From NCBI RefSeq assembly GCF_000421265.1, contig NZ_ATWN01000002.1:496001-560000 (forward strand): a stretch of DNA of 64,000 nt, given 5' to 3'. The notes under the pieces were generated by a model. The model was not told the origin of the DNA, did not search any database, and worked only from the letters and a program-made list of their open reading frames with translations. The stretch's first letter is position 1, and the number at the start of each line of letters is the position of its first letter. Source of the DNA: Thalassospira lucentensis MCCC 1A00383 = DSM 14000 (lineage in GTDB: Bacteria; Pseudomonadota; Alphaproteobacteria; Rhodospirillales; Thalassospiraceae). This document shows, piece after piece, positions 36,921 to 61,919 of this stretch. The translations under genes and the position numbers were made by a program.

Positions 36921-36962
36921 GAGCTCTATCTCATGGACGATCTATGGTTTGTTTGAGGTGTC

Positions 36963-41149: not shown

Positions 41150-41172
41150 GTTAACGTCCAGAGAGCATTTTG

Positions 41173-41197: not shown

Positions 41198-41231
41198 TCC
41201 TTCCAAATGCGTCACCTAGGATACATAACCA

Positions 41232-42218
41232 ATGCTTTTTGCTTATATTTTGCGTCGCATGGTATGGGCGGTTCCTTTACTGTTCGCTGTGTCGCTCATT
41301 GCTTTTGCGCTGATTTCAGCGCCTCCTGGCGACTATATCACCAGTTTTGCAGCGACCCTGTCGCAGTCCGGCGATATTGTTGATCAGGCTCGTCTTGATG
41401 CCCTGCGCGAGCGGTACGGCTTGGATCAACCATTCATTGTCCAGTATTTCCAGTGGATTACGGGAGTTGTCCAGGGCGATTTCGGGATTTCATTTGAATG
41501 GCAGCAACCGGTCGGGCAACTGATTTGGGAACGTATGGCCCTGTCGGTTACGCTCGCACTTTCAACACTTGTGTTTACTTGGGCCGTCGCTCTGCCGATC
41601 GGTATTTATTCTGCCGTCCGCAAGTATTCCATCGGTGACTATATCTTTACCACCATTGGGTTCATCGGTCTTGCAACGCCAAATTTCCTGTTCGCGCTGG
41701 TTTTGATGTATGTGGCGGTGGCCTATTTCGGTGCCGATGTATCGGGCCTGTTTTCCCAGCAATATCAAGATGCGCCGTGGTCCTTTGCCAAGCTTGTTGA
41801 TCTGGCCAAGCATATCTGGATTCCAGTCGTCATCCTGGGGACGAGTGCTACGGCAAGTCTTGTACGCGTGATGCGGGCGAACCTGCTTGATGAGCTTCAT
41901 CGCCCTTATGTCACGACCGCCCGCGCAAAAGGCTTGTCTGAGTGGCGCCTCATTTTGAAGTATCCCGTGCGGATTGCGATCAATCCCTTCGTTTCAACGA
42001 TTGGATGGGCTTTTCCGCAGCTGATATCGGGGGCTGTTATTACGGCCTTTGTCCTCTCCCTGCCAACAGCTGGACCCTTGATGCTTCAGGCTTTGCTGGC
42101 ACAGGACATGTATCTGGCAGGTGCTTTCATTCTTCTTCTTTGCTGTCTTTCCGTCGTGGGGATGCTCGTATCTGACATCCTGCTTGCGGTGATTGACCCT
42201 CGAATTCGTTTCCGGTGA
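41232..42218 (+). CDS. ABC importer permease, DppB-like
   Basis: A 328-residue membrane subunit with six hydrophobic helices, the N-terminal FAYILRRMVWAVPLLFAVS typical of DppB, and the EAA-loop stretch YVTTARAKGLSEWRLILKY. It overlaps the second permease gene by 4 bp (GTGA). Confidence 0.9.
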   Translation: MLFAYILRRMVWAVPLLFAVSLIAFALISAPPGDYITSFAATLSQSGDIVDQARLDALRERYGLDQPFIVQYFQWITGVVQGDFGISFEWQQPVGQLIWERMALSVTLALSTLVFTWAVALPIGIYSAVRKYSIGDYIFTTIGFIGLATPNFLFALVLMYVAVAYFGADVSGLFSQQYQDAPWSFAKLVDLAKHIWIPVVILGTSATASLVRVMRANLLDELHRPYVTTARAKGLSEWRLILKYPVRIAINPFVSTIGWAFPQLISGAVITAFVLSLPTAGPLMLQALLAQDMYLAGAFILLLCCLSVVGMLVSDILLAVIDPRIRFR

Positions 42219-45120: not shown

Positions 45121-45129
45121 GGATATCCA

Positions 45130-46338: not shown

Positions 46339-46348
46339 GAGCGAGACT

Positions 46349-47380
46349 GTGCAACCGACCAACAGCACCGCTCCTGAGGTTGCAGGTGCGTCTCTTCTGG
46401 TGATCGGCCTTGCCGGGGAAGGCGCGCTTGCGCTCTGTGAGTTAAATGCTCAAACGGGCGATATTTCTCTGCTTGATAAAGTGCGGTTGCCCGATGTTGA
46501 GGGCGGCTGTGCGGGGATGCCGATTTCGGTGAACTGTGCAGGCAGTCGGGTATATGCCGGCTGGCGTGGTGAGAAGCCAAGAGTTTTCAGTTTTGAACTT
46601 GACCGTCAGGCGCGCAGCTTGTCCTGCCTTGGCCAAGCTGATCTGCCAGAAGGTGTTTGCTATACGGTGCCGACATCATGTGAAAGTCGCCTGCTGAGTA
46701 GTTCCTATAAAGGCAGCAAAATCGCCATCAGCCCGATTGATGCGAAAGGAAAGGTCGGGGAGCCGGTCATGATCAAGGACGCGCAGCACGCGCATTGCTT
46801 GATCGAGGACCCCAATGGTTTTGTGTATGCAACCAGTCTGCGTGGAGATTTTATCCAGACTTATGCGTTCGACGATACGCGCAATTCACTTCGACCGGTT
46901 GCCCGCCGTGAAGTTCCGAGCGGCTCCGGCCCGCGTCATATTGTGTTCTCTGATGATGGAGCGGTCGCCTACCTGGTGTCTGAATTCGTCGGTACCTTAA
47001 CGCTGTTTGACGTCGGGGCGAAAACGGGGGCGCTTATTCCCAGGCAAACGGTCGCGCTTTTGCCCAAAGGCGAAAAGGCGTGGGCGTCTGAGATTTGCCT
47101 GACCCCAAACCGGGACTTTCTGTATGCGTCAGAAAGAAACAGCTCGCAAATTTTTGGCTACCGTTTGAAAGCCAATCGGGAAATGGAGCGGGTATGTGCT
47201 GTTAAGGCGCCGGATTGCCCGCGTGCGTTTTGTGTTGATCTTTCTGGTCGGGTGCTTGTCGCCTTGGGGGAAAAAAGCGGTGAAGTCTGGACTTATCAAA
47301 TTGGAACCAACGGGGATCTAGATTTTGTCAACCGCGTCAATGTTGGCGTTGCACCAAGCTGGGTTGTGGCAGTGCCGTGA
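46349..47380 (+). CDS. Lactonase, 6-phosphogluconolactonase (YbhE) family
   Basis: A seven-bladed beta-propeller lactonase of 343 residues, with typical blades such as SGPRHIVFSDDGAVAYLVSE and RDFLYASERNSSQIFGY. It starts at GTG 46349 with AGGAGCG upstream. In this setting it probably opens the aldarolactone formed by uronate dehydrogenase, rather than acting on a phosphorylated sugar. Confidence 0.83.
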   Translation: MQPTNSTAPEVAGASLLVIGLAGEGALALCELNAQTGDISLLDKVRLPDVEGGCAGMPISVNCAGSRVYAGWRGEKPRVFSFELDRQARSLSCLGQADLPEGVCYTVPTSCESRLLSSSYKGSKIAISPIDAKGKVGEPVMIKDAQHAHCLIEDPNGFVYATSLRGDFIQTYAFDDTRNSLRPVARREVPSGSGPRHIVFSDDGAVAYLVSEFVGTLTLFDVGAKTGALIPRQTVALLPKGEKAWASEICLTPNRDFLYASERNSSQIFGYRLKANREMERVCAVKAPDCPRAFCVDLSGRVLVALGEKSGEVWTYQIGTNGDLDFVNRVNVGVAPSWVVAVP

Positions 47381-47410
47381 TCGTATTTCTAGGGATTTAA
47401 GGATCGGACG

Positions 47411-48154
47411 ATGAAAGAAAGCACACGCGAAAAATTTATGCACATATCGGTCGCGACAATTGCAACAGCACTTTACAAACGGGGCCTGCGCAATCAGGTA
47501 ATCCAGGGTGTTGGTCCTGTTGGCAACAAGGGGCGCAACATGGTCGGGCCGGCATTTACCCTGCGCTACATGCCCGCGCGTGAAGATCGCAATCAAATTG
47601 ATGTCTTCCGCAATCCCGAGCATCCCCAACGTGTTGCCATTGAAACCTGTCCTGTGGGCCATGTGCTGGTTATGGACAGTCGCAAACAGGCCAACGCGGC
47701 CTCGGCTGGTGATATTCTGTTGACCCGTCTGATGAAGCGCGGCGGTGCCGGTGTCGTGACAGATGGCGGTTTTCGGGATGCTGCGACGATTGCGGGTCTT
47801 GATATCCCGGCCTATCATACCCGCCCATCAAGCCCGACTAATCTCACCAATAATGAGGCTATTGCCATCAATGAACCGATCGGCTGTGGTGATGCGCCGG
47901 TTTTTCCCGGTGATGTTATTGTTGGCGATGCGGATTGCGTCATTGTGATCCCTGCAGAGATTGCTGACGATGTCGCCGATGAATGTATCGAGATGACAGC
48001 CTACGAAGAATTTGTCGCCGAACAGGTGGCCGAAGGCGAAACCATAATCGGTCTTTACCCCTGCACCAAAGATGAGAACCGTTCGTCCTATGAGGCTTGG
48101 CTCTCGACCAAGGGGGCCGACTATTTCTATCATCGGATCAAGCAGAATGCTTAA
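47411..48154 (+). CDS. RraA-family aldolase/regulator-like protein
   Basis: A 247-residue member of the RraA fold, which includes HMG/CHA aldolases that cleave 4-hydroxy-2-oxo acids to pyruvate and a second product. Typical motifs GDILLTRLMKRGGAGVVTDGGFRD carry the arginine and aspartate of the active site. No classical ketodeoxyglucarate aldolase (GarL) is present in the window, so this protein is a candidate for that step. It overlaps the next gene by 8 bp. Confidence 0.8.
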   Translation: MKESTREKFMHISVATIATALYKRGLRNQVIQGVGPVGNKGRNMVGPAFTLRYMPAREDRNQIDVFRNPEHPQRVAIETCPVGHVLVMDSRKQANAASAGDILLTRLMKRGGAGVVTDGGFRDAATIAGLDIPAYHTRPSSPTNLTNNEAIAINEPIGCGDAPVFPGDVIVGDADCVIVIPAEIADDVADECIEMTAYEEFVAEQVAEGETIIGLYPCTKDENRSSYEAWLSTKGADYFYHRIKQNA

Positions 48155-49223
48155 AGGTGGCGGACAAGAAAGTCCTGTTCAGGGAGGTTCGGTTTACCGA
48201 TATTTCCGGTGGGCTTTTCTTGTCACAGTGATCGGATTGTGTTTGGGCGGCGTTGTCGGCTGGCAGGCGACGGGAACATTGGGCGGTACTGCGACGATCT
48301 TTATGATTACCGCCGTATTGGCCGTGCTTGAGATCAGCTTGTCGTTTGATAATGCGATTGTGAATGCCAACAAGTTAAAAACAATGTCGCAGGTCTGGCA
48401 ACGTCGGTTTCTGACTTGGGGCATTTTGATTGCTGTTTTCGGCATGCGTATCCTTTTCCCGCTGCTGATTGTCGTGTTGGCGGCGCATGTTGGTCCGTGG
48501 CAAGCATTGCTGCTGGCATTGACGCAGCCTGATGAATACGCTCGGATCATGCAGGATGCCCATCTGCCCATTGCGGCGTTTGGCGGCACATTTCTGATGA
48601 TGGTTGGTCTTAGTTTTTTCTTTGACCACGAAAAAGACGAGCATTGGATGCATTGGCTGGAACTCAAAATGGTGAGCGCTGCTGGCATCCGTGGCTTCGA
48701 GATCATGATCGTCCTGTTGATCGTTCTTGGGTTCGCATCGCTTCAGACGAGTGCAGATCACTCATATGCCTTCTTTGTCTCGGCGATCTGGGGGCTGGTA
48801 ACCTTTCTGATTGTCGAGGTTATCGGTGCTTTGCTTGACCAATCGCAAACGGCGATGAAAGGTGCGGCCCAAGGTGGACTGGGGGCGTTCCTTTATCTTG
48901 AAGTGCTTGATGCATCGTTTTCGTTTGATGGCGTGATTGGGGCATTTGCGCTTTCGCAGAACCTTTTGGTGATTGCGATCGGTCTTGGTATTGGCGCGAT
49001 GTATGTGCGCTCTATGACCATCATGCTCGTCGAGCGCGGTACGTTAAAGCAATATCGATATCTTGAGCACGGTGCGTTCTACGCGATCATCACGCTTTCA
49101 ATTATCATGTTCGTACAATCCATCGTGCACGTTCCAGAAGTCGTTACCGGAATCGGCGGTGTCGCGATCATTGGATTGGCGCTGTGGTCCTCGGTCCGTC
49201 AAAATCGGGCTGTTCATTTTTGA
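48147..49223 (+). CDS. DUF475/TerC-like integral membrane protein
   Basis: A 358-residue protein with about nine membrane segments. ISLSFDNAIVNANKLK and DASFSFDGVIGAFALS are the paired acidic motifs seen in TerC-like and DUF475 proteins, perhaps metal-ion sites. I start it at ATG 48147, overlapping the RraA stop. Why such a protein sits in a sugar-acid operon is unclear; it may export a metal or be a passenger. Confidence 0.75.
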   Translation: MLKGGGQESPVQGGSVYRYFRWAFLVTVIGLCLGGVVGWQATGTLGGTATIFMITAVLAVLEISLSFDNAIVNANKLKTMSQVWQRRFLTWGILIAVFGMRILFPLLIVVLAAHVGPWQALLLALTQPDEYARIMQDAHLPIAAFGGTFLMMVGLSFFFDHEKDEHWMHWLELKMVSAAGIRGFEIMIVLLIVLGFASLQTSADHSYAFFVSAIWGLVTFLIVEVIGALLDQSQTAMKGAAQGGLGAFLYLEVLDASFSFDGVIGAFALSQNLLVIAIGLGIGAMYVRSMTIMLVERGTLKQYRYLEHGAFYAIITLSIIMFVQSIVHVPEVVTGIGGVAIIGLALWSSVRQNRAVHF

Positions 49224-49387
49224 AATCGATTTGAACACGGCGCGTGTGATGATTTGCAGGAATCATGTATTATGTTAAATGCTGACAGTTCAGTTCTAGC
49301 GGGCACCACGCCTGCGATGTGATCAAAAGCCATATAAAACGCTTTGCGATGCTGGGATGCAGGAGTCCTGCCGGTAAGAGGAATAAG

Positions 49388-50107
49388 ATGACGCAGGCAA
49401 CAAAAACAAAACAGGACGGCACTACTTCTCGAACCAAGAATAAAAAGGTGCGTGAACCAGGATACGTCCGTTTGGTCCAATCGATTCGAGAAGAAATTTT
49501 CAACGGTAGAGTTGCGGCAGGTTCACGCCTTAAAGTATCCGAAATTGCAAAGCGCTATGGAACAAGTACAAACCCGGCACGAGAGGCACTTCAGGTGTTG
49601 GAAGGTGAAGGGCTCGTCACCATCGAACCAAACCGTGGTGCCAGTGTTCGCGAAATTAGCGAAGATATGCTCCACAATGTTTTCGAGCTTCGGGCCATTC
49701 TGTGGGCTTATATTGTCAGGTCATTTGTCGAATTCGCACGGTCAGAAGATATCGCCGAGCTAAGACGCTATCAGGAAGGCTGCGAGAAGGCGGCCCAACA
49801 TAGCGATTATTCATCCTACCGTGAATATAACCTGAAATTTCACGATCTGATCGTCAATCATCACTTCAATAGTGAAGCCATTGCAATCATCCGTAAACAC
49901 GACAGCTGGCTTAGGGCGCTTTCTAAAACAGAACCTTTGAATGTCGCGCAAATGCGCAGATCTGTTGCAGAACACTGGCGCATTGTTGAGGCCGTCGAAA
50001 AAGGTGAAGTAGACGAAGCAGTGCGTGCGATCGAAGAGCATACCCGCAATGCTCATACGATCTTCCGGGATCGATTGCGCCGCAAGCGCCTCGATAAGCC
50101 CGCGTAA
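49388..50107 (+). CDS. GntR-family regulator, FCD type
   Basis: A 239-residue repressor. The winged helix is at residues 40-90 (KVSEIAKRYGTSTNPAREALQVLEGEGLV). An all-helical FCD ligand domain follows, with the metal-binding pattern FHDLIVNHHFN. AGAGGA precedes ATG 49388; an upstream GTG is possible. It is the best candidate for binding the 19-bp sites at 39073 and 50201, the latter just behind its own gene. Confidence 0.87.
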   Translation: MTQATKTKQDGTTSRTKNKKVREPGYVRLVQSIREEIFNGRVAAGSRLKVSEIAKRYGTSTNPAREALQVLEGEGLVTIEPNRGASVREISEDMLHNVFELRAILWAYIVRSFVEFARSEDIAELRRYQEGCEKAAQHSDYSSYREYNLKFHDLIVNHHFNSEAIAIIRKHDSWLRALSKTEPLNVAQMRRSVAEHWRIVEAVEKGEVDEAVRAIEEHTRNAHTIFRDRLRRKRLDKPA

Positions 50108-50200
50108 GCGTCAAAGAATAACGAAAATATGAACTTGAAAGTTACGTGATCGCCACTTTCTGACCGACAGTTGCGATGCCCTGCTTGTTTTTTTGTTGGA

Positions 50201-50219
50201 AAAAATAGTACATTATTTT
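50201..50219. promoter_or_regulatory. 19-bp shared operator, copy 2
   Basis: AAAAATAGTACATTATTTT, the exact reverse complement of 39073-39091. It lies about 110 bp before the hydroxyacid dehydrogenase start. Confidence 0.6.
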
Positions 50220-50326
50220 AACTTTATAATGTGTGATATTTTTGCGATTTTGTGCAAATTGCAACCAACGAGCCTTCTTTCCGGCTTCTTTAATAAACGT
50301 TGAAACAAAACAGGATAACGCCCGTC

Positions 50327-51319
50327 ATGTCGTCTTTTGTCACCCTTGCTTCTCACGATCTTCCGTTTGACCCAAGTCAGTGGGCGCGCCTGGAATCTGC
50401 GATTGCCCCGGGCAAAATGATCAAGGTTGATACGGCGGATAATGATGCTGTTGCTGTTGCTTTGGCCGAAGCCGAGGTCGCCATTCTCAAAGGGGACCTC
50501 GACGCGCGCTTTCTGTCTGCTCCCTATCTTAGATGGATACATTGCGATCATGCCGGTTTGACCAAGTCCGCCACACCCGAGGTGTTCGAAAAAGGTTTGA
50601 CCGTGACCGGATCAGCCGGTCGTTCTGGTCCAGCGCTGGCCGAACATGCCATGATGTTCGCGCTTTTACTGTGCTCCGGGTACCGGGATTTCTATGAGGC
50701 ACAGAAACGCCATGAGTGGCGTCGGGTTCCTGAGATGGCGAACTTGCGCGCTCTGAGTGGCCGCACGATGGGCATCATTGGCATGGGCCATACCGGCAAG
50801 GCGCTGGCCGTGCGGGCGAAGGCATTTAACATGAATGTCCTGGGCTATCGACGCCGTGATGAGGAGACCCCCGAAGGCGTGGATCGCATGTATTGCAGTG
50901 ATCGTGGCGAAGGGATTGATGAAATACTTGAGCAGGCCGATATCGTTGCGCTTGTGATTAACCTTTCGGATGCCACGCATCACATGATCGGGGCCAAACA
51001 ACTGGCAAAAATGAAAAAATCCGCCGTGTTGATCAATTTGTCGCGCGGCCCGGTTGTCGACCAGGCCGCACTGATTGACGCACTTGAAAATGGCGGCATT
51101 GCAGGCGCAGGCCTCGACGTTACGACCCCGGAACCGCTGCCAGAGGGGCATAAGTTATGGGATATGCCGAACGTACTTATCACGCCGCATTTTACAGCCT
51201 CTTTGCCAGATCGCTCGGAACGTTCATTGAAGATGATTCTCGACAATCTGCAGCGTTACCGCGCCGGCGAGAGCATGCTTAATCAGATCAGTCAGGAAGA
51301 TCTGTGGTCGAAAAGCTGA
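50327..51319 (+). CDS. D-2-hydroxyacid dehydrogenase
   Basis: A 330-residue NAD(P)-dependent enzyme of the phosphoglycerate/hydroxypyruvate dehydrogenase type: Rossmann motif GMGHTGKAL, NLSRGPVVDQAAL with the catalytic arginine earlier (INLSDATHH), and a final histidine in LITPHFT. It could reduce hydroxypyruvate or glyoxylate, or oxidise a hydroxy acid of the pathway. ATG 50327 is preferred over TTG 50300. It begins a new unit after the operator at 50201. Confidence 0.85.
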   Translation: MSSFVTLASHDLPFDPSQWARLESAIAPGKMIKVDTADNDAVAVALAEAEVAILKGDLDARFLSAPYLRWIHCDHAGLTKSATPEVFEKGLTVTGSAGRSGPALAEHAMMFALLLCSGYRDFYEAQKRHEWRRVPEMANLRALSGRTMGIIGMGHTGKALAVRAKAFNMNVLGYRRRDEETPEGVDRMYCSDRGEGIDEILEQADIVALVINLSDATHHMIGAKQLAKMKKSAVLINLSRGPVVDQAALIDALENGGIAGAGLDVTTPEPLPEGHKLWDMPNVLITPHFTASLPDRSERSLKMILDNLQRYRAGESMLNQISQEDLWSKS

Positions 51320-51380
51320 ACCGACGATCTACCGGTTCGGACAGGTAAACATCAAACATAGTAAAAAAGGTAGGATCAAA

Positions 51381-52270
51381 ATGAATATCGGATTCATTGG
51401 TTTGGGTGTAATGGGGCAACCGATGGCTGGCACCTGATTTCAGCAGGACATAGCGTTCAGCTTCATCGGATAAAAGACAAATCCCGTCATTTGGTAGAAA
51501 TGGGCGGTCAGGAAGCCAAATCGGCAAAGGATGTTGCCAAGGCATCGGACATTATCATCCTGATGTTGCCTGATACGCCTGATGTTGAGGCTGTCCTGTT
51601 TGGCAAGAGCGGCGTGGCTCAGGGGCTTGATGCGGGTAAAACTGTCATCGATATGAGTTCGATTTCTCCGGTTGCAACCAAAGAATTCGCCAGCCATATT
51701 TCTGACCTTAACTGTGCGTATCTTGATGCGCCGGTGTCCGGCGGTGAAGCCGGTGCCAAATCTGCAACCCTTTCCATCATGGTTGGTGGCACGCAAGAGG
51801 ATTTCGACAAGGTCCTACCTGTCCTTAAAGTCATGGGCAAAAACATTAATCTTGTCGGGGGGGGGGGGGCGTTGGTGATGGGCAAACGGCCAAAGTTGGC
51901 CAATCAGATCATTGTCGCACTGACCATCAATGCGGTGTCTGAAGGTTTGCTGTTCGCGTCAAAAGCGGGGGCTGATCCGGCAAAGGTGCGTGGCGCATTG
52001 ATGGGTGGATTTTCATCCTCAAAGATCCTTGAAATGCATGGTCAGCGTATGATTGATCGCAATTTCGAGCCAGGATTTCTCATTCCACTGCATCAAAAAG
52101 ACATCAACAACGCCCTTGATGCCGCAAGAAGTATCAAACTCTCACTCCCATCGACATCACTGGTTCAGGAACTGTTCAATGTCTGCGGTGCATTGGGGCA
52201 TGGAGAGGAAGATCATTCGGCACTCGTACGGGCTCTGGAAACGATGGCCGCCCATCAGGTGAATTCCTGA
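51381..52270 (+). pseudogene. Tartronate semialdehyde reductase-like gene, frameshifted
   Basis: The gene starts well (MNIGFIGLGVMGQPMAG, the NAD-binding motif; GGTAGGATC before ATG 51381), but the frame stops at 51435-51437. One base is missing at about 51430; the correct frame resumes as HLISAGHSVQLH. A run of 13 G at 51857-51869 and one extra G near 51896 shift the frame and shift it back, turning the expected VGDGQTAKVANQ into an unrelated stretch. The rest is intact (DAPVSGGEAGAKSATLS). It is a decayed paralogue of the gene at 53868, a phase-variable gene, or affected by sequencing error. Confidence 0.8.
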
Positions 52271-52362
52271 TCAGTAATTCGGTTTTGCCGTGAGCGCTGC
52301 TTGCGGCAAAATCCCCGTATATGCGGGGCAAGAGTATAAGAGTGTTCGTTTGCTAACGTGCT

Positions 52363-52830
52363 TCAGTATGGTTGTTCGTCAAGTTCTAACGCAGTTCCTG
52401 CACCGTCCCAGTGCCGGGTTGATTGGCTGCAACGAGACAGATGCATACGCATCGCATGGCGCGCCCCAGCATCATCGCGTCTTTCTATGGCATTAAAAAC
52501 GGCAAGGTGTTGTTGGCGGATTGCCATGCCTTTCATTTCTGCTGAAAGACCTGATGGGGCGATAGCAAGCACCATGCCGCTGCGAATCTCTGGCAGCATA
52601 GTTTCCAGACAGCTTAGGAAAAAGTTGTTATGCGTGGCACGGGCGACAGAGAGATGGAATTCGAAATCCACTTCAAAGGAGAATTGTGACGTTTGGTGGA
52701 GCTTTTCGAGGTCGGACATCGCTTTCTTCAGGCGCGCAATATCCGTTTCGGTGCGGTATCTTGCTGCCGCCGCTGCGGCCTCACCTTCAATGCCAATTCT
52801 GTATTCGAAACAAAAATTTCGCGGGTTCAT
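52363..52830 (-). pseudogene. GntR-family regulator fragment (FCD domain only)
   Basis: The 155-residue frame aligns with the FCD domain of the intact regulator next to it (YRIGIEGEAAAAAARYRTETD against FREGVEGESAALAAERRTD; FHLSVARATHNNFF). The DNA-binding N-terminus, about 80 residues, is missing. It therefore cannot bind DNA. It looks like a leftover of a duplicated regulator. Confidence 0.75.
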
Positions 52831-52899
52831 CTATCGATGCTCCAAACTTCCATGCACGGTATGGTTTTGTCTATCTTGCTGCTCTGATGACATATCTCG

Positions 52900-53595
52900 T
52901 CAGGATTTTCCTGTCTGTCCTTCCATCAGTCGCTTATGAGACGAGCATACATGGTGACGCATCGCGGTGCGTGCACGCTCTGGGTCTTTGGCTTCGATGG
53001 CGTCAAAAATCTCCTGGTGCTCGTGATTTACAGCTTTATTAAAGTCGGAACTGAAAGCCGCAATATTCCATGTAAGATTCATGCATAATTGTATTTGTGT
53101 ACGAAGTGACAGCAGTGTGTTGACGTAGAATGGGTTGCCTGATGCCTCGGCAATGCCGACATGAAATTTGAAATCTCTGCCTGCGCTATCCTCAATTGAA
53201 TCTCCCGGCTGGCAGGTCGATACGCTGCGCAACATTTCCAGTTGCTTGTCAGTGCGGCGCTCAGCTGCAAGAGCTGCCGACTCACCCTCCACACCCTCGC
53301 GGAAGCTGGAAAAGGGAGCAATGTCTGCAATACTGGCAATTACCGGAAACTGTACGTCTGAAGACGGCTTTCGCGTAACGAAGCTACCCGATCCGCGACG
53401 TGATAAAATAAGCCCCTCAGTACGGAGCCGTGCAAGCGCTTGTCGGATCACCGGACGCGAAACGTTGAACTGACGTGCCATCTCGTTTTCGGAAGGCAGA
53501 CGTGAATTTTCTGCCCAGGTTCCGTTACGGATGAGATCAAACATTTCACGGTACGTAATGTCAGACAGCTTGTCTGCGACTTCATCAACCGTCAC
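52900..53595 (-). CDS. GntR-family regulator, FadR/FCD type
   Basis: A 231-residue regulator. The winged helix SRLPSENEMARQFNVSRPVIRQAL is followed by the FCD domain with FHVGIAEASGNPF metal ligands. GTG 53595 with GGGAGGA upstream is preferred over a longer frame from 53733. It is divergent from the reductase gene at 53868, with a palindrome between, so it probably controls that gene and the operon behind it. Confidence 0.87.
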   Translation of the reverse strand: MTVDEVADKLSDITYREMFDLIRNGTWAENSRLPSENEMARQFNVSRPVIRQALARLRTEGLILSRRGSGSFVTRKPSSDVQFPVIASIADIAPFSSFREGVEGESAALAAERRTDKQLEMLRSVSTCQPGDSIEDSAGRDFKFHVGIAEASGNPFYVNTLLSLRTQIQLCMNLTWNIAAFSSDFNKAVNHEHQEIFDAIEAKDPERARTAMRHHVCSSHKRLMEGQTGKS

Positions 53596-53832
53596 GTTTA
53601 TCCTCCCAATCTGATGCTTTGGATATTTAGCACGCCCGTCGGAAAAGACATCATTGGGCACTTTGACCCTTGCCTTAAAAACAGCGTGTGGCGGTGCAAT
53701 TTTTTCCGACCTTACCAGCTTCCAAGCTAGCAAAATTGCATTGTTATCGCAAGCGAGTTGGAAAATTTGTAAAAATCTGTTACTTCCGTTTGGCCAATCA
53801 GGCGAAAATGATATCCGGTTATCCCGGAGTGC

Positions 53833-53842
53833 ATACGCGTAT
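53833..53842. promoter_or_regulatory. Palindrome in the gntR/garR control region
   Basis: ATACGCGTAT, a 10-bp perfect palindrome lying 26 bp before the reductase ATG. Candidate operator for the adjacent GntR regulator. Confidence 0.45.
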
Positions 53843-53867
53843 CATAATCACGACGGAGGAAACTATC

Positions 53868-54749
53868 ATGGCAAAAATTGGCTTCATCGGGCTTGGCACT
53901 ATGGGGTGCCCAATGGCTGAGCGCTTGATCAAAGCGGGGCACGAATTGCGGATTACGCGGGTAAAAGATGCGTCGCGTTATCTGGTTGATCTCGGTGCGA
54001 CTGCCTGCGAAACGCCTGCAGAGGTCACGCAAGGAAGCGAAATCGTTATTTTGATCGTTCCAGATACGCCAGACGTTGATTCGGTTCTGTTTGGCGATCG
54101 GGGGGTTGCCTCCACGCTTGGTTCCGGCGCGATCTTGGTTGATATGAGTTCGATATCGCCGCTGGCAACCAAGGAATTTGCCTCAAAAATCAATGCCCTT
54201 GGTGCTCAATATGTTGATGCTCCTGTGTCTGGTGGCGAAACTGGCGCACGGGAAGGAACTCTCTCGATCATGGTTGGTGGAACCCGGGATGCGGTGGCTT
54301 CTGTACGTCCAGTGTTGGAGGCAATGGGGAAAAATATCACTCACGTCGGCGATATAGGGGCAGGGCAAACAGTCAAGGTTGCCAACCAGATCGTGGTTGG
54401 TCTGACGATCCAAGCTGTCAGCGAAGCCTTTCTTCTTGCGAAAAAGGCTGGTGTCGATCTACAGGTCGCTCGTGACGCCATGCTGGGCGGCTTTGCTCAG
54501 TCGCGAATCCTCGAATTGCATGGACAACGGATGATTGATGAAACCTTCGACCCTGGTTTCAAAATCGCCCTGCACCGCAAAGACTTGAATATCGCGCTGA
54601 CAAATGCGGGGCAGCTAAATGTCGCGCTTCCGAATACTGCTGGTGTGGTTCAGATCATGAATGCCGCGATCGCACAAGGCGAGGGGCAGAGTGACCATTC
54701 CGCACTATTCCGGGTGCTTGGCGCAATATCCGGTTCAGATTCTGAATAG
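53868..54749 (+). CDS. garR: Tartronate semialdehyde reductase (beta-hydroxyacid dehydrogenase)
   Basis: Reduces tartronate semialdehyde to D-glycerate. The 293-residue protein has IGFIGLGTMGCPMAERL, the substrate motif DAPVSGGETGAREGTLS and the catalytic lysine in GQTVKVANQIVV. CGGAGG precedes ATG 53868. It feeds the glycerate kinase at 60008. A related 3-hydroxyisobutyrate dehydrogenase function cannot be ruled out, but context favours the aldarate route. Confidence 0.85.
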   Translation: MAKIGFIGLGTMGCPMAERLIKAGHELRITRVKDASRYLVDLGATACETPAEVTQGSEIVILIVPDTPDVDSVLFGDRGVASTLGSGAILVDMSSISPLATKEFASKINALGAQYVDAPVSGGETGAREGTLSIMVGGTRDAVASVRPVLEAMGKNITHVGDIGAGQTVKVANQIVVGLTIQAVSEAFLLAKKAGVDLQVARDAMLGGFAQSRILELHGQRMIDETFDPGFKIALHRKDLNIALTNAGQLNVALPNTAGVVQIMNAAIAQGEGQSDHSALFRVLGAISGSDSE

Positions 54750-54904
54750 TCGGCGTGTGATCAGGCAGTGCGCATTATCAAGATATAGATAGTGTTGACA
54801 AATTATTACAAATTTACCAAGCTGTGATAGCTGAGCATGGTGTCGAGGCACTGAAAGCGTCGCTGCGCCATGCTCGGCAAACGCCTAAATATAAGGAAAA
54901 TAAG

Positions 54905-56977
54905 ATGTCAGGGGAAAACGAGCGGGATCGTAAATCTGGTGGAACATCTTTCACCGGAGAAGATGGGTGGTGGCGCCGTCCCTTTTCTGTGTTCCAAACC
55001 AATCTGCAAGAGATCGACGCAACTATGGATGTTGAACAGACTCTTGATAGAATTGAGGCTCAGGGTGCGACGACGTGGCTGATTAATACCGGCGGAATCT
55101 CTTCGTTTTATCCGACTGATCTGCCCTATCAGACTCGCAATCCCTTTCTGGCAGACCGACCGTCAGGAGATCTGATTGGTGATGCTGTTGCCGCTGCAAA
55201 GAGACGCGGGATCAAAGTCCTGTCACGCCTCGATTTTTCCAAGGTATCCCCACGTATTGCCAAGGAACATCCGGAGTGGTTGTTTGTATCGCCGAAGGGC
55301 GAGCCGCAGATTTACAACACGCTTTATAGCACCTGTCCGAACCGTGATTATTATCAGAACCGGTCGTTAGACATTCTGGATGAGGTCATTGATCGCTATC
55401 CGATTGATGGGTTCTTTTTTAACTGGTTCGATTTTTCCGAAATGGATTACAGCCGGGTCTATCACGGCGTTTGCAGTTGCAATGTTTGCCAAGAGCGCTT
55501 TGCGACATACTCCGGTGGCAAGGAGCTTCCCGATGGTCCGGGGCGCCCGAACTATGCGCAGTGGTTGAGTTTTGCAAATGATGTCGTAACCACACTGTGT
55601 GCCAAGATCTCGGACCATATCAGCGCCAGACGTCCGGATGCGGCGCTTGTTCTCAAACGCGGTGCGCCGATTGTCTACTACGAGGCAAACAACGCATTCG
55701 GGCGAGAGCCATGGCACCATAACACCTCAGAGAATGTCGGCGCGCATATGACTGGTCTGCCCGAGATTTCCCTGTTGGTGAACTCGGTATCTTTCATCGA
55801 TATGCCCTATCGGATGTCTGGCGAGCAGCCTGAAATGTTCGCGCAATATTTGCTGCAGGCAATCGCGCGCGGCGGAAATCCGTCGACATATATCATGGGT
55901 GCACCGGGCCGTATTCCCTATGCAAACCTGCCTGTGGCAGGCCAAATTCAGTGCTTTCATCGCAACCATCATGAAATTTATCGCGGTCTTCGACCCGCCT
56001 CGAATATTGCGTTGGTTCGGCCTGATCCGGTGCGCCGCGCTGAACCAGGTTATGCACAAAATGTTTCTGAATTCCGTGGGCTTTTCTCTGGCTTGACGGA
56101 GCGTAACCTGCCGTTTGACGTGGTGGCGGTCGAATGCATTTCCAAGATCGCTGAAGAAGGTCGTCTCAGTCAGTTCCAGATGATCATTTTACCTGACCTT
56201 GGTCAGGTTGGATCTGATACGGCATCGGCTTTGGACGCCTATGTGGCGGCTGGTGGGAATGTTGTGCTGACCGGAGGCAGTGCAATAACCGACGAGGGCG
56301 AAGGCGAACTTGCCACAGGCCCTGCTATCATGCGCGCTGGTAATGTTTTGACCGGTTCCGACTTGTGGTCGACATTCGTGACCGATGCTGAACAAACGCA
56401 ATCTGATGCGTTTTGTTTTGCGCCGCGTATGGTGGCCGTTTACGGCACCTATGCCAATTACGTTTGGAAGCCGCGTGCCGAAAAGATGGGCCGTCTTGCA
56501 CCGCAAGCGCCGTTCGGCCCACCCGAAAAGTGTTATGGCCATATCCTTAGCGACCACCCAGCTGCGGTTCGGTTGATCAATGGTGGCAGTGTTACCCAGT
56601 TTCCGTGGACCATTGGTCATACCTATCGCGAATTCGGGACGACCGAAATCAGGGATTTCTTCCTCGATTGTGTTGCCGATCTTGCGACCCCGACGGTCAC
56701 GGCTGAGTTGCCAGATCAGGTTGAAATTGTCGTTGGACGGTCGGATGCAGGCCTGGTCATTCATTTGATCAATCAAAGCGGGATGCGAACCCGATCCGTT
56801 GGACCGCACTTGCCAATCTCGGGCGGTGTCCTGCGGATAAAGGATGGTGTCGGTCCGGCGCGGCTTCTGAAGTCGGATAAAGAAATTGAAGGCCAAACTG
56901 AAGATGGCGCGCTCGTGCTTGAGCTGCCTGAGCTTGGACTTTACGAGGTCGTCGTGCTGCCCGAAGCAGCGCAATGA
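54905..56977 (+). CDS. Predicted glycoside hydrolase (GHL6-like) with trimerisation domain
   Basis: A 690-residue protein. The first 300 residues form a TIM-barrel like hypothetical glycosyl hydrolase 6 (DGFFFNWFDFSEMDY with likely catalytic acids; a cysteine pair CSCNVCQERF). The middle resembles the beta-galactosidase trimerisation domain (LDAYVAAGGNVVLTGGSA). A beta-sandwich ends the protein. There is no signal peptide, so it acts in the cytoplasm on an imported glycoside. AAGGAAAA precedes ATG 54905. Its place between garR and a TRAP transporter suggests that it frees a uronic acid. Activity is unproven. Confidence 0.75.
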   Translation: MSGENERDRKSGGTSFTGEDGWWRRPFSVFQTNLQEIDATMDVEQTLDRIEAQGATTWLINTGGISSFYPTDLPYQTRNPFLADRPSGDLIGDAVAAAKRRGIKVLSRLDFSKVSPRIAKEHPEWLFVSPKGEPQIYNTLYSTCPNRDYYQNRSLDILDEVIDRYPIDGFFFNWFDFSEMDYSRVYHGVCSCNVCQERFATYSGGKELPDGPGRPNYAQWLSFANDVVTTLCAKISDHISARRPDAALVLKRGAPIVYYEANNAFGREPWHHNTSENVGAHMTGLPEISLLVNSVSFIDMPYRMSGEQPEMFAQYLLQAIARGGNPSTYIMGAPGRIPYANLPVAGQIQCFHRNHHEIYRGLRPASNIALVRPDPVRRAEPGYAQNVSEFRGLFSGLTERNLPFDVVAVECISKIAEEGRLSQFQMIILPDLGQVGSDTASALDAYVAAGGNVVLTGGSAITDEGEGELATGPAIMRAGNVLTGSDLWSTFVTDAEQTQSDAFCFAPRMVAVYGTYANYVWKPRAEKMGRLAPQAPFGPPEKCYGHILSDHPAAVRLINGGSVTQFPWTIGHTYREFGTTEIRDFFLDCVADLATPTVTAELPDQVEIVVGRSDAGLVIHLINQSGMRTRSVGPHLPISGGVLRIKDGVGPARLLKSDKEIEGQTEDGALVLELPELGLYEVVVLPEAAQ

Positions 56978-57156
56978 CAGAGGGGGTGTCATGCCCGGAC
57001 GGCTAGGTACGGGCATGACTTCCAGAACAGCGAACCAACTGTTTGAAACGCGCCATCCATAAAGGATCAGGCGCATAACCAAGTCTATTAGACGAAAGCG
57101 GGGCCATCGCCCAAGCATAACAAGACTTTCGCATAGACATCAGTGGAGGAAACAAG

Positions 57157-58125
57157 ATGAAACACTTTATTATCGGTGCGGCGATTGCCTTCGCGCTTTC
57201 CACACCAGTGCAGGCCGCACAGCAACTTATCCTTGGCACAATTACTTCCGAGACCTCGCATTTCGGCGTTGGCGCCGAAGCATTCTTTGACAAGCTTGAA
57301 GAGCTTTCTGGTGGTGAGTTTACCGGAATACAGGCACCTGCCGGTCAGCTTGGCGGCGAGCGCGACCTGATCGAAGGGCTGCAGATCGGCTCGGTTGATC
57401 TGGCCATGGTGTCGACCGGGCCGCTTGGCAACTTCGTTCCCGAAGTTTACGCCTTTGATCTACCGTTCCTGTTCCGCGACTATGATCATGCCCGCAAGGT
57501 GCTTGATGGAGAGATCGGTCAGGAATTACTCAAAAAGGTCGATGAGAATAATCTGGTTGGCCTGGCATGGGCCGAAAATGGCTTTCGTCATGTTACCAAC
57601 AATGTTCATCCTGTGAAAACGCCCGGTGATCTGGATGGTCTTAAGCTGCGCACCATGGAGAACAAAGTCCATATGGCCGCCTTTTCGGGCATGGGGGCCG
57701 CGCCAACACCGATGGCATTTCCGGAAGTGTTTAGTGCCCTGCAGCAAGGCGTTGTTGATGGTCAGGAAAACCCGGTTACCGTGATCTCGGCTTCTAAGTT
57801 CTGGGAAGTGCAGAAATACGCATCTCTGACTGGTCATGTCTATTCACCGGCCATTTTCCTTGCATCACCTGCCTTGTTCGAGGGGCTGAGTGATGAACAA
57901 AAAGGTTGGTTCTACGAGGCAGCGAAGGCAGGGGTTGAAGCGAACCGCGCTGAGGTCAACCGTCTTGAAGATAGCGGGGTCGCCATGATGCGCGAACACG
58001 GTATGGAGGTTCTGACTGACGTCGATAAGGCACCGTTTGCAAAACTGGCAGAAGAAGCATCCTACGCCGTTTATACAGACCAATATGGTTCTGAGATGAT
58101 CGAGCGGATCAAGGCCGTCAAATAA
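57157..58125 (+). CDS. dctP: TRAP transporter substrate-binding protein (DctP)
   Basis: A 322-residue periplasmic receptor; signal peptide ends at VQAAQ (about 21). DctP features include GERDLIEGLQIGSVDLAMVSTG and LKLRTMEN, which holds the carboxylate-binding arginine. GGAGGAAACAAG precedes the ATG. It belongs to the second TRAP system, in the aldarate block, and probably binds a uronate or aldarate. The terminator-like hairpin after it should raise its output over the permeases. Confidence 0.9.
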   Translation: MKHFIIGAAIAFALSTPVQAAQQLILGTITSETSHFGVGAEAFFDKLEELSGGEFTGIQAPAGQLGGERDLIEGLQIGSVDLAMVSTGPLGNFVPEVYAFDLPFLFRDYDHARKVLDGEIGQELLKKVDENNLVGLAWAENGFRHVTNNVHPVKTPGDLDGLKLRTMENKVHMAAFSGMGAAPTPMAFPEVFSALQQGVVDGQENPVTVISASKFWEVQKYASLTGHVYSPAIFLASPALFEGLSDEQKGWFYEAAKAGVEANRAEVNRLEDSGVAMMREHGMEVLTDVDKAPFAKLAEEASYAVYTDQYGSEMIERIKAVK

Positions 58126-58142
58126 CGCCTGATTTTGTGACC

Positions 58143-58173
58143 GGACCAGCGCGCCATGCGCTGGTCCTTTTTT
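58143..58173 (+). terminator. Attenuating terminator between dctP and dctQ
   Basis: GGACCAGCGC (58143-58152), loop GCCAT, GCGCTGGTCC (58158-58167), then TTTTTT: a perfect 10-bp stem with a T-run, inside the operon. Partial termination is likely. Confidence 0.88.
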
Positions 58174-58194
58174 CTTTTTGGAAGAAACGTTCGG

Positions 58195-58695
58195 ATGAAG
58201 CTTTTTTTGCGTGTCGAGACGGCCGCGACGCAGTTCGCTCTTGTGTGTGCCATTGCATTTTTGCTGATCGCAGCCGGGCTTGCAGTTTATCAGGTATCCA
58301 CCCGTTTCATTTTTGGCCACCCGTCTACCTGGACGGAGGTTATCACACGGTTTGCTATGATTTGGGGGGTATTTATGGGCGTGGCCCCTGCGATCCGCGA
58401 GGGCGGTATGATTGCCGTCGATCTTGTTCAGAGGGTGTTGCCGCGCAAGTTTGGTGTTGCTCTTTATCTGGTTGCCACGGCGCTGACCATCATCTTCTTT
58501 GCGATCCTGTTTTGGCAAGGCTGGGCCATGACCGGGCGCGTTGCGCGCCAAACGGTTGCCGGTCTCGATCTGTCAATGTCTTGGGCCTATGCGGCATTGC
58601 CGACGGCATCTGTCTTTATTTTGATGTCGGCACTGGGCAGTGCAATCAGGGCTATTCAACATGGTTGCGTTGATCATTGGGAGGAAGCCCAGTGA
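58195..58695 (+). CDS. dctQ: TRAP transporter small permease (DctQ)
   Basis: A 166-residue membrane protein with four hydrophobic segments (LVCAIAFLLIAAGLAVYQVS first). The stop overlaps the large permease GTG (GTGA). ATG 58195 is chosen; a longer frame would start inside the hairpin. Confidence 0.86.
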   Translation: MKLFLRVETAATQFALVCAIAFLLIAAGLAVYQVSTRFIFGHPSTWTEVITRFAMIWGVFMGVAPAIREGGMIAVDLVQRVLPRKFGVALYLVATALTIIFFAILFWQGWAMTGRVARQTVAGLDLSMSWAYAALPTASVFILMSALGSAIRAIQHGCVDHWEEAQ

Positions 58696-59972
58696 ATACA
58701 GCAATTGTTCTGTCTCTTTTGATCTTCTTTGTTGTCGGTGTGCCGATCGCGATCTCAATCGGTTTGGCGTCGGTTATCGGCATAGAGGTCCATGGCCGCC
58801 TTCCGCTGTTACTTGTGGCGCAACGGATGTTCGCCGGTCTCGACAGTTTTCCCCTGATGGCGATCCCGCTGTTTATTCTTGCCGGGAACCTTATGTCGGC
58901 GGGCGGCATTTCTTATCGTCTGGTTGAACTCGCCAAATCAGTTGTTGGCGGTATTCAGGGTGGTCTTGCTGCCTCCTGTGTTTTGACATGTATGCTTTTT
59001 GCGTCCGTTTCCGGCTCTTCGGTTGCAACGACCTTTGCCATCGGTGCGATCCTGATACCTGCAATGGTTAAGCAAGGCTACCCTGCACCTTTCGCGGCCT
59101 CCGTCCAGGCCAGCTCCGCCGAGCTTGGGGTTCTTATTCCCCCTTCCATTCCGCTCATTCTTTACGGTGTTTCCACCGAAACATCGATTGGTGACTTGTT
59201 CGTTGCAGGGCTTGGTCCAGGGATGCTGGTCGCCGGATCACTGATGGCACTGGTTCTGATTTTGTGCCGTCTTCGAGGGATCGGCAAGCTTGGCAAGGAT
59301 GATCGTCCAGGGTTCCTGAAAGCTCTGTTTTCGGCAATGCCAGCGCTTCTGGTTCCCTTCGTTATTCTTGGCGGTATCTATTCCGGGGTTTTCACTCCAA
59401 CAGAAGCCAGTGCTGCTGCTGTGGTGGCTGCACTCGTTGTTGGTGGGGTGTTCTATCGCGAACTGAAGGTGCAAAACCTTTATCCGATCCTGAGGTCGAC
59501 GGTCATTGCAACATCGGCAATCATGCTGATTATCTCGGCTGCGGCATTGTTTTCATTTTTGATTGCCCGTTCAGGCTTGCCCAATGAAATTGCCAGCTCA
59601 ATCAAGGGGATGTTTGAAAGTAAATATTCGTTCCTTCTGGCTGTGAATCTCTTGCTTCTCGTGGTCGGTATGTTCATTGAGACCGCAGCAGCGATATTGG
59701 TTTTGGCTCCGATATTGACACCAGTTGCAATGTCTTATGGCGTTGACCCGGTTCATTTCGGGCTGATCATTGTGGTTAACCTTGCGCTTGGCATGATTAC
59801 GCCCCCATTGGGCGTCAATCTTTTCGCGGCCTGTGCTGTTGCCAAGCTGCCGGTTGAGAAAATTATCCCTCAATTGCTGTGGTTTGTTCTGACAGTTTTT
59901 GCCGCCCTAATGATCATCACCTACGTGCCCGCGGTTTCACTGTGGCCGGTGGAATTCATTAACGGGTCTTAG
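58692..59972 (+). CDS. dctM: TRAP transporter large permease (DctM)
   Basis: A 426-residue pore subunit with about 12 helices, including FASVSGSSVATTFAIGAILIP and GVLIPPSIPLILYGVSTETS. GGGAGGAAG precedes GTG 58692. It completes the second TRAP transporter. Confidence 0.92.
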   Translation: MNTAIVLSLLIFFVVGVPIAISIGLASVIGIEVHGRLPLLLVAQRMFAGLDSFPLMAIPLFILAGNLMSAGGISYRLVELAKSVVGGIQGGLAASCVLTCMLFASVSGSSVATTFAIGAILIPAMVKQGYPAPFAASVQASSAELGVLIPPSIPLILYGVSTETSIGDLFVAGLGPGMLVAGSLMALVLILCRLRGIGKLGKDDRPGFLKALFSAMPALLVPFVILGGIYSGVFTPTEASAAAVVAALVVGGVFYRELKVQNLYPILRSTVIATSAIMLIISAAALFSFLIARSGLPNEIASSIKGMFESKYSFLLAVNLLLLVVGMFIETAAAILVLAPILTPVAMSYGVDPVHFGLIIVVNLALGMITPPLGVNLFAACAVAKLPVEKIIPQLLWFVLTVFAALMIITYVPAVSLWPVEFINGS

Positions 59973-60007
59973 GCAGTTGAGATGTACCAGACACATGAAG
60001 GTAGAAA

Positions 60008-61291
60008 ATGAACACCACAGATCAAGGCACCTTAGGCTCTCAGGGCATTGCAGAATTGCGGGAACATGCCAAAGACATGTTTGCCGCTGCCGTTAAAAGG
60101 GCCGATCCGGAAGAAGGTGTGCGCCGGCAACTCGCAGTAAGCCCGCTGCCCTCAAAAAAAGGGGGGCGGTGCATTGTTTTGGCGATTGGCAAGGCTGCTA
60201 TTCCAATGATGCGGGCGGCGCAAAGCGCGATACCTGATGTACATGATGCTCTTGTCGTGACGAATCCGGAAAACATGTGTGACCTCGTCGGCACGACGGT
60301 CATAGCGGGGATGCATCCGGTGCCCGATGCAGCTTCCGCGCATGCTGGCCGTTGCGTCATTGATTTTTTACAGGCGTCACGCGAGGGCGATGTTGTTGTT
60401 GCGCTGATTTCAGGCGGTGGGTCATCGCTGATGATAGCGCCTGCCGGTGGCATTTCTGTCGAAGATTACGGCAGCTTGAATGACGTGCTGCTTGCCAGCG
60501 GGCTTGCGATCAACGACATGAATCTGATTCGCCAGCAGGTTGATGATCTTAAAGGGGGCGGTCTTTTACGGTTTGCGGCGCCAGCCGAAGTGCATGCTTT
60601 ACTGCTGTCTGATGTAATCGGTGACGATTTGCGGGCCATCGCTTCTGGTCCTACCGTGGCACCGATTGGAACGCCCCAGCAGGCTGTATCGCTTATGAAG
60701 TCGTTGGGGATTTGGGATAAAGTCCCGGCCAGCATTCGCGATCATCTGGTCAAGAGCGCGCCGATAATTGATCTGCCAACGGCATCAAATCATCTGATCG
60801 GGTCAAACCGGCAAAGTCTGGAAGCGATGTTGGCTGCCGCCCCCAAAGGTTTTGACGCTCACATTGTTAGTGATGCCCTTGTTGGCGATGTCGAAAGGGC
60901 AGCGACGGAAGTTATCGCTGCAGCGCGATCTGCCAAAGGGCCGGTAGCCCTGATTTTCGGCGGAGAAACAACCGTCCAGATCAAAGGATCGGGACGCGGC
61001 GGACGCAACCAGGAACTAGCGCTTCGCTTTGCCTTGGCAGCAAAAGACACCTTGCAAGATAACTGGGTGTTCCTTTCGGGGGCGACAGATGGACGAGATG
61101 GTCCGACAGATGCGGCAGGCGCATTGGTTGACGAAGGCACGCTGAAACGGATCGCGGACGCAGGTGGGAACCTTGATGCGTTGCTCAGAAACAATGACAG
61201 CCATGAAGCGCTAAGCCGCGCACATGATCTACTGGTCACTGGTGCAACAGGCACGAACGTGGCCGACGTTCAAGTGCTTCTGCTTCCTTGA
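60008..61291 (+). CDS. ttuD: Glycerate 2-kinase (TtuD/MOFRL family)
   Basis: Phosphorylates D-glycerate to 2-phosphoglycerate. The 427-residue protein shows the GK-II N-terminal domain (VLAIGKAAIPMMRAA; VVALISGGGSSLMIAPAGG) and the C-terminal MOFRL part (GGETTVQIKGSGRGGRNQELALRFAL). AGGTAGAAA precedes the ATG. It is the exit step taking the reductase product into glycolysis and the last gene before the orphan transposon end. Confidence 0.92.
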   Translation: MNTTDQGTLGSQGIAELREHAKDMFAAAVKRADPEEGVRRQLAVSPLPSKKGGRCIVLAIGKAAIPMMRAAQSAIPDVHDALVVTNPENMCDLVGTTVIAGMHPVPDAASAHAGRCVIDFLQASREGDVVVALISGGGSSLMIAPAGGISVEDYGSLNDVLLASGLAINDMNLIRQQVDDLKGGGLLRFAAPAEVHALLLSDVIGDDLRAIASGPTVAPIGTPQQAVSLMKSLGIWDKVPASIRDHLVKSAPIIDLPTASNHLIGSNRQSLEAMLAAAPKGFDAHIVSDALVGDVERAATEVIAAARSAKGPVALIFGGETTVQIKGSGRGGRNQELALRFALAAKDTLQDNWVFLSGATDGRDGPTDAAGALVDEGTLKRIADAGGNLDALLRNNDSHEALSRAHDLLVTGATGTNVADVQVLLLP

Positions 61292-61543: not shown

Positions 61544-61676
61544 TGTCAGCTTTTCTGTCAATTCTGCAGGTTTTTGTCATCTTTTGTGACAATCGATGAC
61601 AACTTATCTGGCAATTGAAAATGCTAAGGAGTTGATTTTGTAAGAAGTCAAATGTCACCTTTTGTGGCACCTGACA
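61544..61676 (+). repeat. Orphan second cargo-distal Tn7-like end
   Basis: This stretch repeats 23044-23176 with no length change at an offset of exactly 38,500 bp. It has 17-mer sites at 61544, 61575, 61597 and 61653, the last identical to its counterpart, and ends in CTTTTGTGGCACCTGACA. Orientation is the same as the first copy. Base differences between the sites show it is an older relative and not a recent copy. The five bases after it (GCAAT) do not match TTCGA, and no matching opposite end was found nearby. Confidence 0.85.
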
Positions 61677-61678
61677 GC

Positions 61679-61701
61679 AATAATCATATTATATGATTAT
61701 T
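61679..61701. repeat. AT-rich hairpin beside the orphan end
   Basis: AATAATCATA, loop TTA, TATGATTATT: a perfect 10-bp palindrome starting 3 bp after the orphan terminus. It may have been an insertion target, like the palindromic target at the first element, or a weak terminator. Confidence 0.5.
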
Positions 61702-61919
61702 TCCCATGGACGCCATTTCCCCTGATTAATCCCGCTCCGAATTCCTAACACGCCCTAAACCCCGGTTGTTATAAATTTGGGTTATGGTGCGTTAGTTTAT
61801 CGAAGTAGAGATTTCTTTCTGAACTGAAAGGAAAAGCTGCCGTTCATCTTCCTTCTGTATTGCAGATGAGTGACAGCCTTTTCCAAAATATCGAAGAGGT
61901 TCAAGGGTTACGGTCTATT

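Follow-up and report, generated by a model that had tools for sequence, protein, structure and literature searches.

Transposition of Tn7 duplicates 5 bp of target DNA. Among Tn7-like transposons, the CAST types I-B2 and I-D home to tRNA genes (PMC10293859), and Tn7-like elements with tRNA genes as targets or with metabolic cargo have been reported in two sources (PMC10293859, PMC8649781). Target immunity and the layout of the ends, with closely spaced repeats at the att-side end in many elements, have been treated elsewhere (PMC11406308), as have additive flexible genomic islands at tRNA genes and tycheposons (PMC10872708). We compared with these systems a stretch of 64,000 nucleotides of Thalassospira DNA (the window, on contig C2), in which a live element, E1, and a second, orphan transposon end lie on the same side of one tRNA gene. 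The genome set comprised 29 Thalassospira genomes, i.e., the source strain and 28 others. In much of the genus, leftover ends have accumulated 3′ of this tRNA, and many of them mark the far border of a block of other genes. The locus in the window is one case of a genus array of the form tRNA - flank - M - cargo - distal end, repeated, in which M is a motif of 21 bp (TTGTCATAATTCGGGGTTATG) that heads the units.

The live element E1 at the rpoD-linked tRNA gene

Downstream of the open reading frame at 1860-3953, which from our own reading we take to be rpoD, ARAGORN placed a tRNA gene with a CAT anticodon, and the stretch formed by the 3′ end of rpoD and this tRNA was matched in 29 of 29 genus genomes. 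The tRNA and the parts of E1 are as follows.

4060..4136, plus strand: tRNA gene, CAT anticodon, the target (att) gene
4141..4145, plus strand: left target-site duplication of E1, TTCGA, read directly
4146..4214, plus strand: proximal end of E1 with closely spaced repeats, from reading and profile
4961..10199, plus strand: tnsA (4961-5629), tnsB (5557-7716), tnsC (7673-8659), and tniQ/tnsD (8574-10199), from open frames and Pfam
10313..22865, unstranded: E1 cargo, with Fic, HerA, and SIR2 genes, a type IIG restriction enzyme, a type II methyltransferase, and others
23044..23176, plus strand: distal end of E1
23177..23181, plus strand: right target-site duplication of E1, TTCGA, read directly
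23177..23234, plus strand: tRNA 3′ flank of type B, which adjoined the tRNA before E1 arrived, from flank comparison

E1 spans 4146-23176 between its two copies of TTCGA (4141-4145 and 23177-23181), and its first base lies 10 positions past the last base of the tRNA. tnsA, tnsB, tnsC, and a TniQ/TnsD gene stand side by side, the gene set of a Tn7-like element, and gave Pfam matches above the cut-offs to TnsA N-terminal, Mu-transpos_C, TniB/AAA_22, and TniQ, with rve alone below its cut-off. Judged by their sequence, the ends likewise appear to be those of a Tn7-like transposon, with several repeats, 5′-TGT...ACA-3′ termini, and the 5-bp duplication. The cargo is defence-like. HerA and SIR2 genes are adjacent on the minus strand (window 14171-16947, PADLOC), near the type IIG restriction enzyme; a HerA-SIR2 pair acts in anti-phage defence. 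Flank type B, now to the right of E1, is also found directly 3′ of the tRNA in two relatives (G026 and G011).

The orphan distal end and the catabolic block

A whole-genome search returned a 133-bp copy of the distal end 23044-23176 at 61544-61676, with 83% identity and an E value of 2.3e-34 that rules out chance similarity. In a local alignment, 61539-61676 paired with 23038-23176 with one gap. The two ends lie on the same strand at a start-to-start distance of exactly 38,500 bp, an offset that we take as an accident. Four end repeats of ~18 bp were identified by eye (as reverse complements, TGCCACAAAAGGTGACA, TTGCCAGATAAGTTGTCA, TTGTCACAAAAGATGACA, and TTGACAGAAAAGCTGACA), and the orphan keeps all of them, with 0, 1, 3, and 1 changes, in that order, relative to the live end. 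The initial annotation had described a diverged full copy of the distal end in the same orientation, 38,500 bp further on, and a catabolic region bracketed by the two ends; both descriptions held. The features from this region are as follows.

23235..23255, plus strand: motif M (TTGTCATAATTCGGGGATATG), head of the catabolic unit, from the profile
23283..61291, unstranded: probable catabolic cargo of the older insertion, from annotation and genus searches
61544..61676, plus strand: very probable orphan distal end of an older Tn7-like element, from homology searches
61677..61709, plus strand: GCAAT (would-be duplication copy) and tRNA 3′ flank of type A (half of a hairpin), immediately behind the orphan
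61766..61786, plus strand: diverged copy of motif M that opens the next unit; that unit closes with the third distal end, beyond the window

We consider 61544-61676 to be, very probably, a worn, complete distal end of an older Tn7-like element that inserted at this tRNA. It is of full length, has the repeat layout of E1, and is followed by what appears to be an att-site flank: the orphan terminus, ...TGACA, is succeeded by GCAAT and then by AATCATATTATATGATTATTTCCCATGG. In relatives without an insertion, the tRNA is directly followed by flanks of this kind, and in G027 GCAAT lies 5 nt past CCTACC, which is the offset of the TTCGA duplication of E1. When the 60 bp behind the orphan were compared with tRNA flanks, the best score was 52 (G015), the 99% null being 27. 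This flank test covered the 60 bp behind 44 distal ends from 20 genomes against 20 tRNA flanks, with the flank of the same genome excluded; ends with a profile score of <30, on the minus strand, or in which profile position 119 was not reached were omitted, as was one duplicate locus. The score exceeded the 99th percentile of 1,000 random 60-mers for 28 of the 44 ends, orphan included. No recognisable tRNA flank stood behind the other 16, among them a third end of the source genome, where GCAATG is kept and is followed by a stretch that reads, to us, as transposase-like. Because GCAAT and the hairpin match the tRNA 3′ flanks of relatives, we conclude that the orphan end did land at this tRNA. 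The paired proximal end and matching duplication of a complete Tn7-like element are missing from the orphan: a profile of nine proximal ends found no second one in the window, and GCAAT was not found before the proximal ends of the source genome, which carry TTCGA and, on contig C20, GTTGT.

The block closed by the orphan encodes a CoA transferase, TRAP transporters, a biotin carboxylase set, a peptide ABC transporter, and a DUF4147/MOFRL protein, which is glycerate-kinase-like. In searches made with two halves of the block, in which the best 10 first-look candidates per genome were scored, the whole block was recovered from none of the other 28 genus genomes; the reading of the block as native chromosome was therefore dropped, and the conservation in all relatives that the initial annotation had named as counter-evidence was not encountered. 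Pieces do recur. The segment 23368-31534 is found at 76% elsewhere in the genus (G002 C23 and G011 C1), the stretch at ~31.8-36.0 kb is 65-75% like a carboxylase gene set present elsewhere in the genus and at C1:260.5-263.9 kb of the source genome, and the second half of the block gave only short genus matches of <700 bp. No end, M, or tRNA was seen near the shared 8.2-kb piece of G002 C23 and G011 in the stretches read, so that this piece is of no help in dating the insertion. An intact element with the catabolic-block cargo was found in none of the 29 genomes. Past the orphan, 61803-71611 is present in G028 behind a distal end and, in parts, in G006 and G007 behind another unit. That the tRNA originally adjoined the SDR at 61.9 kb was thus not borne out, as the stretch of this SDR matches units elsewhere in arrays, and no relative in the genus set was seen to have the tRNA directly followed by the SDR.

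It had also been proposed that an older element used this tRNA and lost its other end. We adopt this reading because an att-site flank follows the orphan and relatives share the architecture. The older element would have inserted beside the tRNA before E1, and its proximal end and tns genes would since have gone while the ~38-kb cargo was kept. E1 would have inserted later, between the tRNA and the older remnant, as suggested by the TTCGA duplication and the flank at 23177.

Distal ends and motif M across the genus

The third end of the source genome lies at C2:575851-575983 (window-equivalent 79851-79983), at a distance of 18.3 kb beyond the orphan and in the same orientation, with 83% identity; it sits 433 bp from the contig end. 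A fourth is found at C20:583-715 (80%), and C1 gave a weak match (71%). On C20 the distal end is followed by 11 bp and then by a proximal end (together 583-793), an order that should be expected from two insertions stacked beside one tRNA. Behind this proximal end lie acyl-CoA dehydrogenase, MarR regulator, and TRAP transporter genes, with no tns match in the 6,000 of 12,662 bases that were read; the proximal end and the acyl-CoA dehydrogenase/TRAP genes might form a cargo-only element that is movable in trans.

Distal ends were found in 23 of the 29 genus genomes (53 matches, partial ones included), with at least two in 17 of the 23, and in an order-wide sample they were found in 17 of 199 genomes, all Thalassospira. 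Eleven genomes had at least two same-strand ends (profile score of ≥30) within the stretch read behind the rpoD-linked tRNA. Close relatives of TniQ (at least 30% over most of the length) numbered six copies in five genomes (G000, G023, G001, G016, and twice in G002), apart from which a G013 fragment and four more remote copies (23-24%) were matched. Nine full proximal ends were found: seven at the tRNA (G000, G001, G009, G016, G019, G023, and G025), beginning 8-13 nt past CCTACC, and two directly behind a distal end (on C20 and on G002 C7). Distal ends thus far outnumber proximal ends and transposases, with the reserve that the proximal profile was built from these same nine ends and that strongly diverged proximal ends could escape it. 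At G002 C7:37566-37567, a distal and a proximal end are joined directly, one terminal base being missing, which resembles a circle junction or an end-to-end insertion. Decay of tnsB in four relatives was considered and rejected, as the stops lie at residues 8-12, before the likely start codon.

In four of the six tns clusters, a ~91% identical copy of the targeted tRNA is carried 0.2-3 kb after tniQ, and some of these copies are preceded by a stretch that looks promoter-like by eye. The copies are as follows.

G016 C20:377084-377165: element-borne tRNA copy
G002 C7:44495-44572: element-borne tRNA copy
G002 C21:6255-6332: element-borne tRNA copy
G001 C22:10008-10085: element-borne tRNA copy

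With a profile, we located 58 plus-strand M sites, of which 28 sit 47-90 bp past a distal end, 10 sit 63-96 bp past a tRNA (one being an element-borne copy), and 20 have neither a distal end nor a tRNA within 200 bp. The diverged M at 61766 scores 14.7; scores of >12 were reached by 60 plus-strand and 5 minus-strand hits in 1.64 Mb. The 16-bp core of M occurs once without mismatch in the source genome (23235), and on other contigs four sites match it with 2 mismatches. No M was found in E1. M is downstream of tns genes and tRNA copy in three clusters (G016, G002 C7, and G002 C21).

The arrays are mosaics of shared units in differing order, and many units are 85-98% identical between genomes. 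Twelve head families occur at two or more M sites, nine of them behind more than one left context and three behind a single one. In two pairs, G003 164-22225 with G015 50518-72580 (95.7%) and G011 172-29438 with a unit located elsewhere in G015 (96.6% over 29,281 bp), the similarity begins at M and ends at the last base of the distal end. At the second G015 location, no tRNA was found in the stretches scanned, nor were tns genes or a proximal end found at the unit; to the left of its M, ~1.2 kb are 90% identical to a stretch behind the tRNA copy of the G001 tns element. This likeness in sequence ties the second G015 unit to a putative element order of proximal end - tns - tRNA copy - M - cargo - distal end. 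Some 0.5 kb beyond the distal end that closes this G015 unit there is a gene (G015 C12:184834-186252) with a distant likeness (28%) to TnsB.

A role of M as a second end recognised by the transposase was rejected for two reasons: in the three units compared by eye (G000, G003, and G015), the 5 bp that precede M are unlike the 5 bp that follow the distal end, and M, at 63-96 bp behind the tRNA, does not coincide with the insertion point. The source genome has five tyrosine recombinases (PF00589), none of them on contig C2, so that this contig offers no candidate among them for acting on M. A dif consensus had no match in the genome, leaving no reference site for comparison with M.

Loss of the proximal side and comparison with known systems

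We propose, at a little under an even chance, that an element loses its proximal end and tns genes through recombination at M, which would spare the cargo and distal end. An incoming element would run from its proximal end through the tns genes (and, in some, a tRNA copy) to M, the cargo, and the distal end. Once it had inserted beside the tRNA, its M would recombine with the M found 63-96 bp behind the tRNA in a copy of the locus that carries no insertion, be it on a sister chromosome, in DNA of another strain, or by way of an excised circle. The product would read tRNA - flank - M - cargo - distal end - flank - M. In this way the locus would lose the transposase, keep the cargo, and regain its landing site. 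Exchange with an unoccupied copy would give equal flanks on the two sides of a unit, and different flanks would be expected if the partner came from another strain. The flank to the left of the first unit closely resembles that to the right of its distal end in G011 (55/55), G008 (53/55), G024 (46/48), and G006 (47/55); the two differ in 9 of 13 first units. The unit in the window has type B on the left and type A on the right, so that in this lineage it was not deposited by simple sister exchange. Other observations that weigh against the explanation are the 16 distal ends without a recognisable tRNA flank, the three head families with a single left context, the failure to find M in E1 or an intact element with this cargo, and the position of the five tyrosine recombinases off contig C2. 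From tRNA to M, the flanks of several genomes look by eye like intact hairpins. On this reading of the tRNA-adjacent flanks, we rejected excision of an inner element, which would leave hybrid flanks. Flank types differ between nearest neighbours when the genomes are placed on a tree built from the 1,250 bp that precede the tRNA (26 of 29 genomes), which indicates that the change arises at the tRNA and not through imports that span rpoD. We tentatively extend the proposal to a broader picture, which we rate as possible and short of even, in which Tn7-like elements feed an integron-like array at the tRNA: stripped at M, catabolic units would accumulate and be exchanged between species, and the site would be renewed.

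The same fossil end could have been left by ordinary deletion or decay of the proximal end and tns genes, the edges at M then reflecting only that M lies in tRNA flanks. Possible intermediates exist, namely, proximal ends for which no tns genes were seen within the bases read, on C20 (6,000 of 12,662) as well as next to the tRNA in G009 (60 kb) and G019 (38.6 kb), and partial distal ends are also consistent with decay. Random deletion would not, however, be expected to produce cargo-to-cargo junctions at M with no tRNA flank between them (G006, G007, and G028), a G015 unit elsewhere whose similarity starts at exactly the same M, or the flanks that by eye appear as intact hairpins to the left of units, and we regard this explanation as rather unlikely. 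Homologous recombination between strains, with crossovers in rpoD/tRNA and in a shared cargo unit, could instead have replaced the proximal side, and the shared units, many of them 85-98% identical, would supply the homology. We judge this unlikely, as flank type does not follow the preceding 1,250 bp in 26 of 29 genomes compared: different flanks are found within groups that are closely alike upstream of the tRNA (identities: G000/G005, 96.5%; G012/G023/G026, 97-98%; G018/G027, 97.4%), and the crossover would thus need to fall at the tRNA repeatedly. Recombination of the chromosomal tRNA with an element-borne copy would also remove the proximal part, and the ~91% identical copies in G016, G002 C7, G002 C21, and G001 C22 make such an event conceivable, as does the flank of the G002 C7 copy, which recurs behind a distal end in G028. 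Yet the native 3′ end is kept letter for letter in 26 of the 29 rpoD-linked tRNAs. In G014 and G020 the tRNA is another variant (97%), without the T-arm of the element-borne copies, and in G002 it is cut by the contig end. We consider this route very unlikely.

A different matter is whether the orphan end is still in use. The initial annotation had suggested that the live transposase might pair the end at 4146 with the orphan and move about 57.5 kb (4146 to 61676, 57,531 bp). In favour of this, the orphan keeps all four repeats as identified by eye, and the live end is 82% identical to that of G016, so that ends vary little while transposases vary much. The orphan groups at 91-92% with ends of G026, G020, G002 (80132), G016, and G011 (branch supports, 0.65-0.83). 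The nearest of this kin with matching duplications, the G016 element (ATAAT; its end 91% identical to the orphan), is nevertheless served by a TnsB that is only 43.7% identical to the live one, and none of the nine proximal ends was seen to pair with a more remote distal end. Three of the nine have a distal end with an equal 5-bp duplication in their own genome: the window (TTCGA), where it is the nearest end; G016 (ATAAT), where it is the only end; and G001 (CGTAT), where the pair spans two contigs. No match was found for the other six (G023, G025, G002, C20, G009, and G019), G009 and G019 being without a distal end to compare. We thus find movement of the 57.5-kb stretch very unlikely. We note that the distal ends 23044-23176 and G016 C20:354574-354706 are 82% alike while their TnsB proteins are only 43.7% alike, which suggests an exchange of ends or a strong constraint on them.

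If M-mediated stripping of Tn7-like elements is correct, catabolic islands of tens of kilobases can remain after a transposon without its transposase and would look nonmobile. Motif M on one side and the distal end on the other give a testable rule for cutting such an island into units, and Thalassospira is a genus in which one unit can be compared at different places.

Like the Tn7-like elements that target tRNA genes, E1 has TnsA, TnsB, TnsC, and TniQ, lies just past a tRNA, and is flanked by a 5-bp duplication, and it has the closely spaced repeats at the att-side end that PMC11406308 describes for many elements. In contrast to the CAST I-B2 and I-D elements, its annotated genes, which are what was compared, show no CRISPR parts; insertion 30-33 nt past the tRNA is given for the I-D system (PMC10293859), whereas the seven proximal ends at the tRNA here begin 8-13 nt past CCTACC. 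The genus further differs in that distal ends outnumber proximal ends and tns genes and that some elements carry a copy of the target tRNA, a trait of which we found no description in the mostly open-access literature searched. The additive flexible islands (PMC10872708) are likewise extended by repeated insertion at a single site and carry metabolic cargo, but their borders are repeats of the tRNA 3′ end and not, as here, a Tn7-type distal end and a 21-bp motif. The tycheposons, as described in the same source, are likewise tRNA-anchored islands with metabolic cargo; contig C2 has no tyrosine recombinase (PF00589), which sets the locus apart from tycheposons and integrase islands. In the mostly open-access literature on Thalassospira, Tn7-like elements, islands, and att sites, we found no description of M or of distal-end arrays. 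Integron cassette arrays consist of exchangeable units joined at a short conserved site, with one fixed anchor. No IntI candidate lies on contig C2, which is free of tyrosine recombinases (PF00589), but the array described here too has exchangeable units at a short conserved site and a fixed anchor; its units, in contrast, are ~8-38 kb long, and their right border is often a transposon end.
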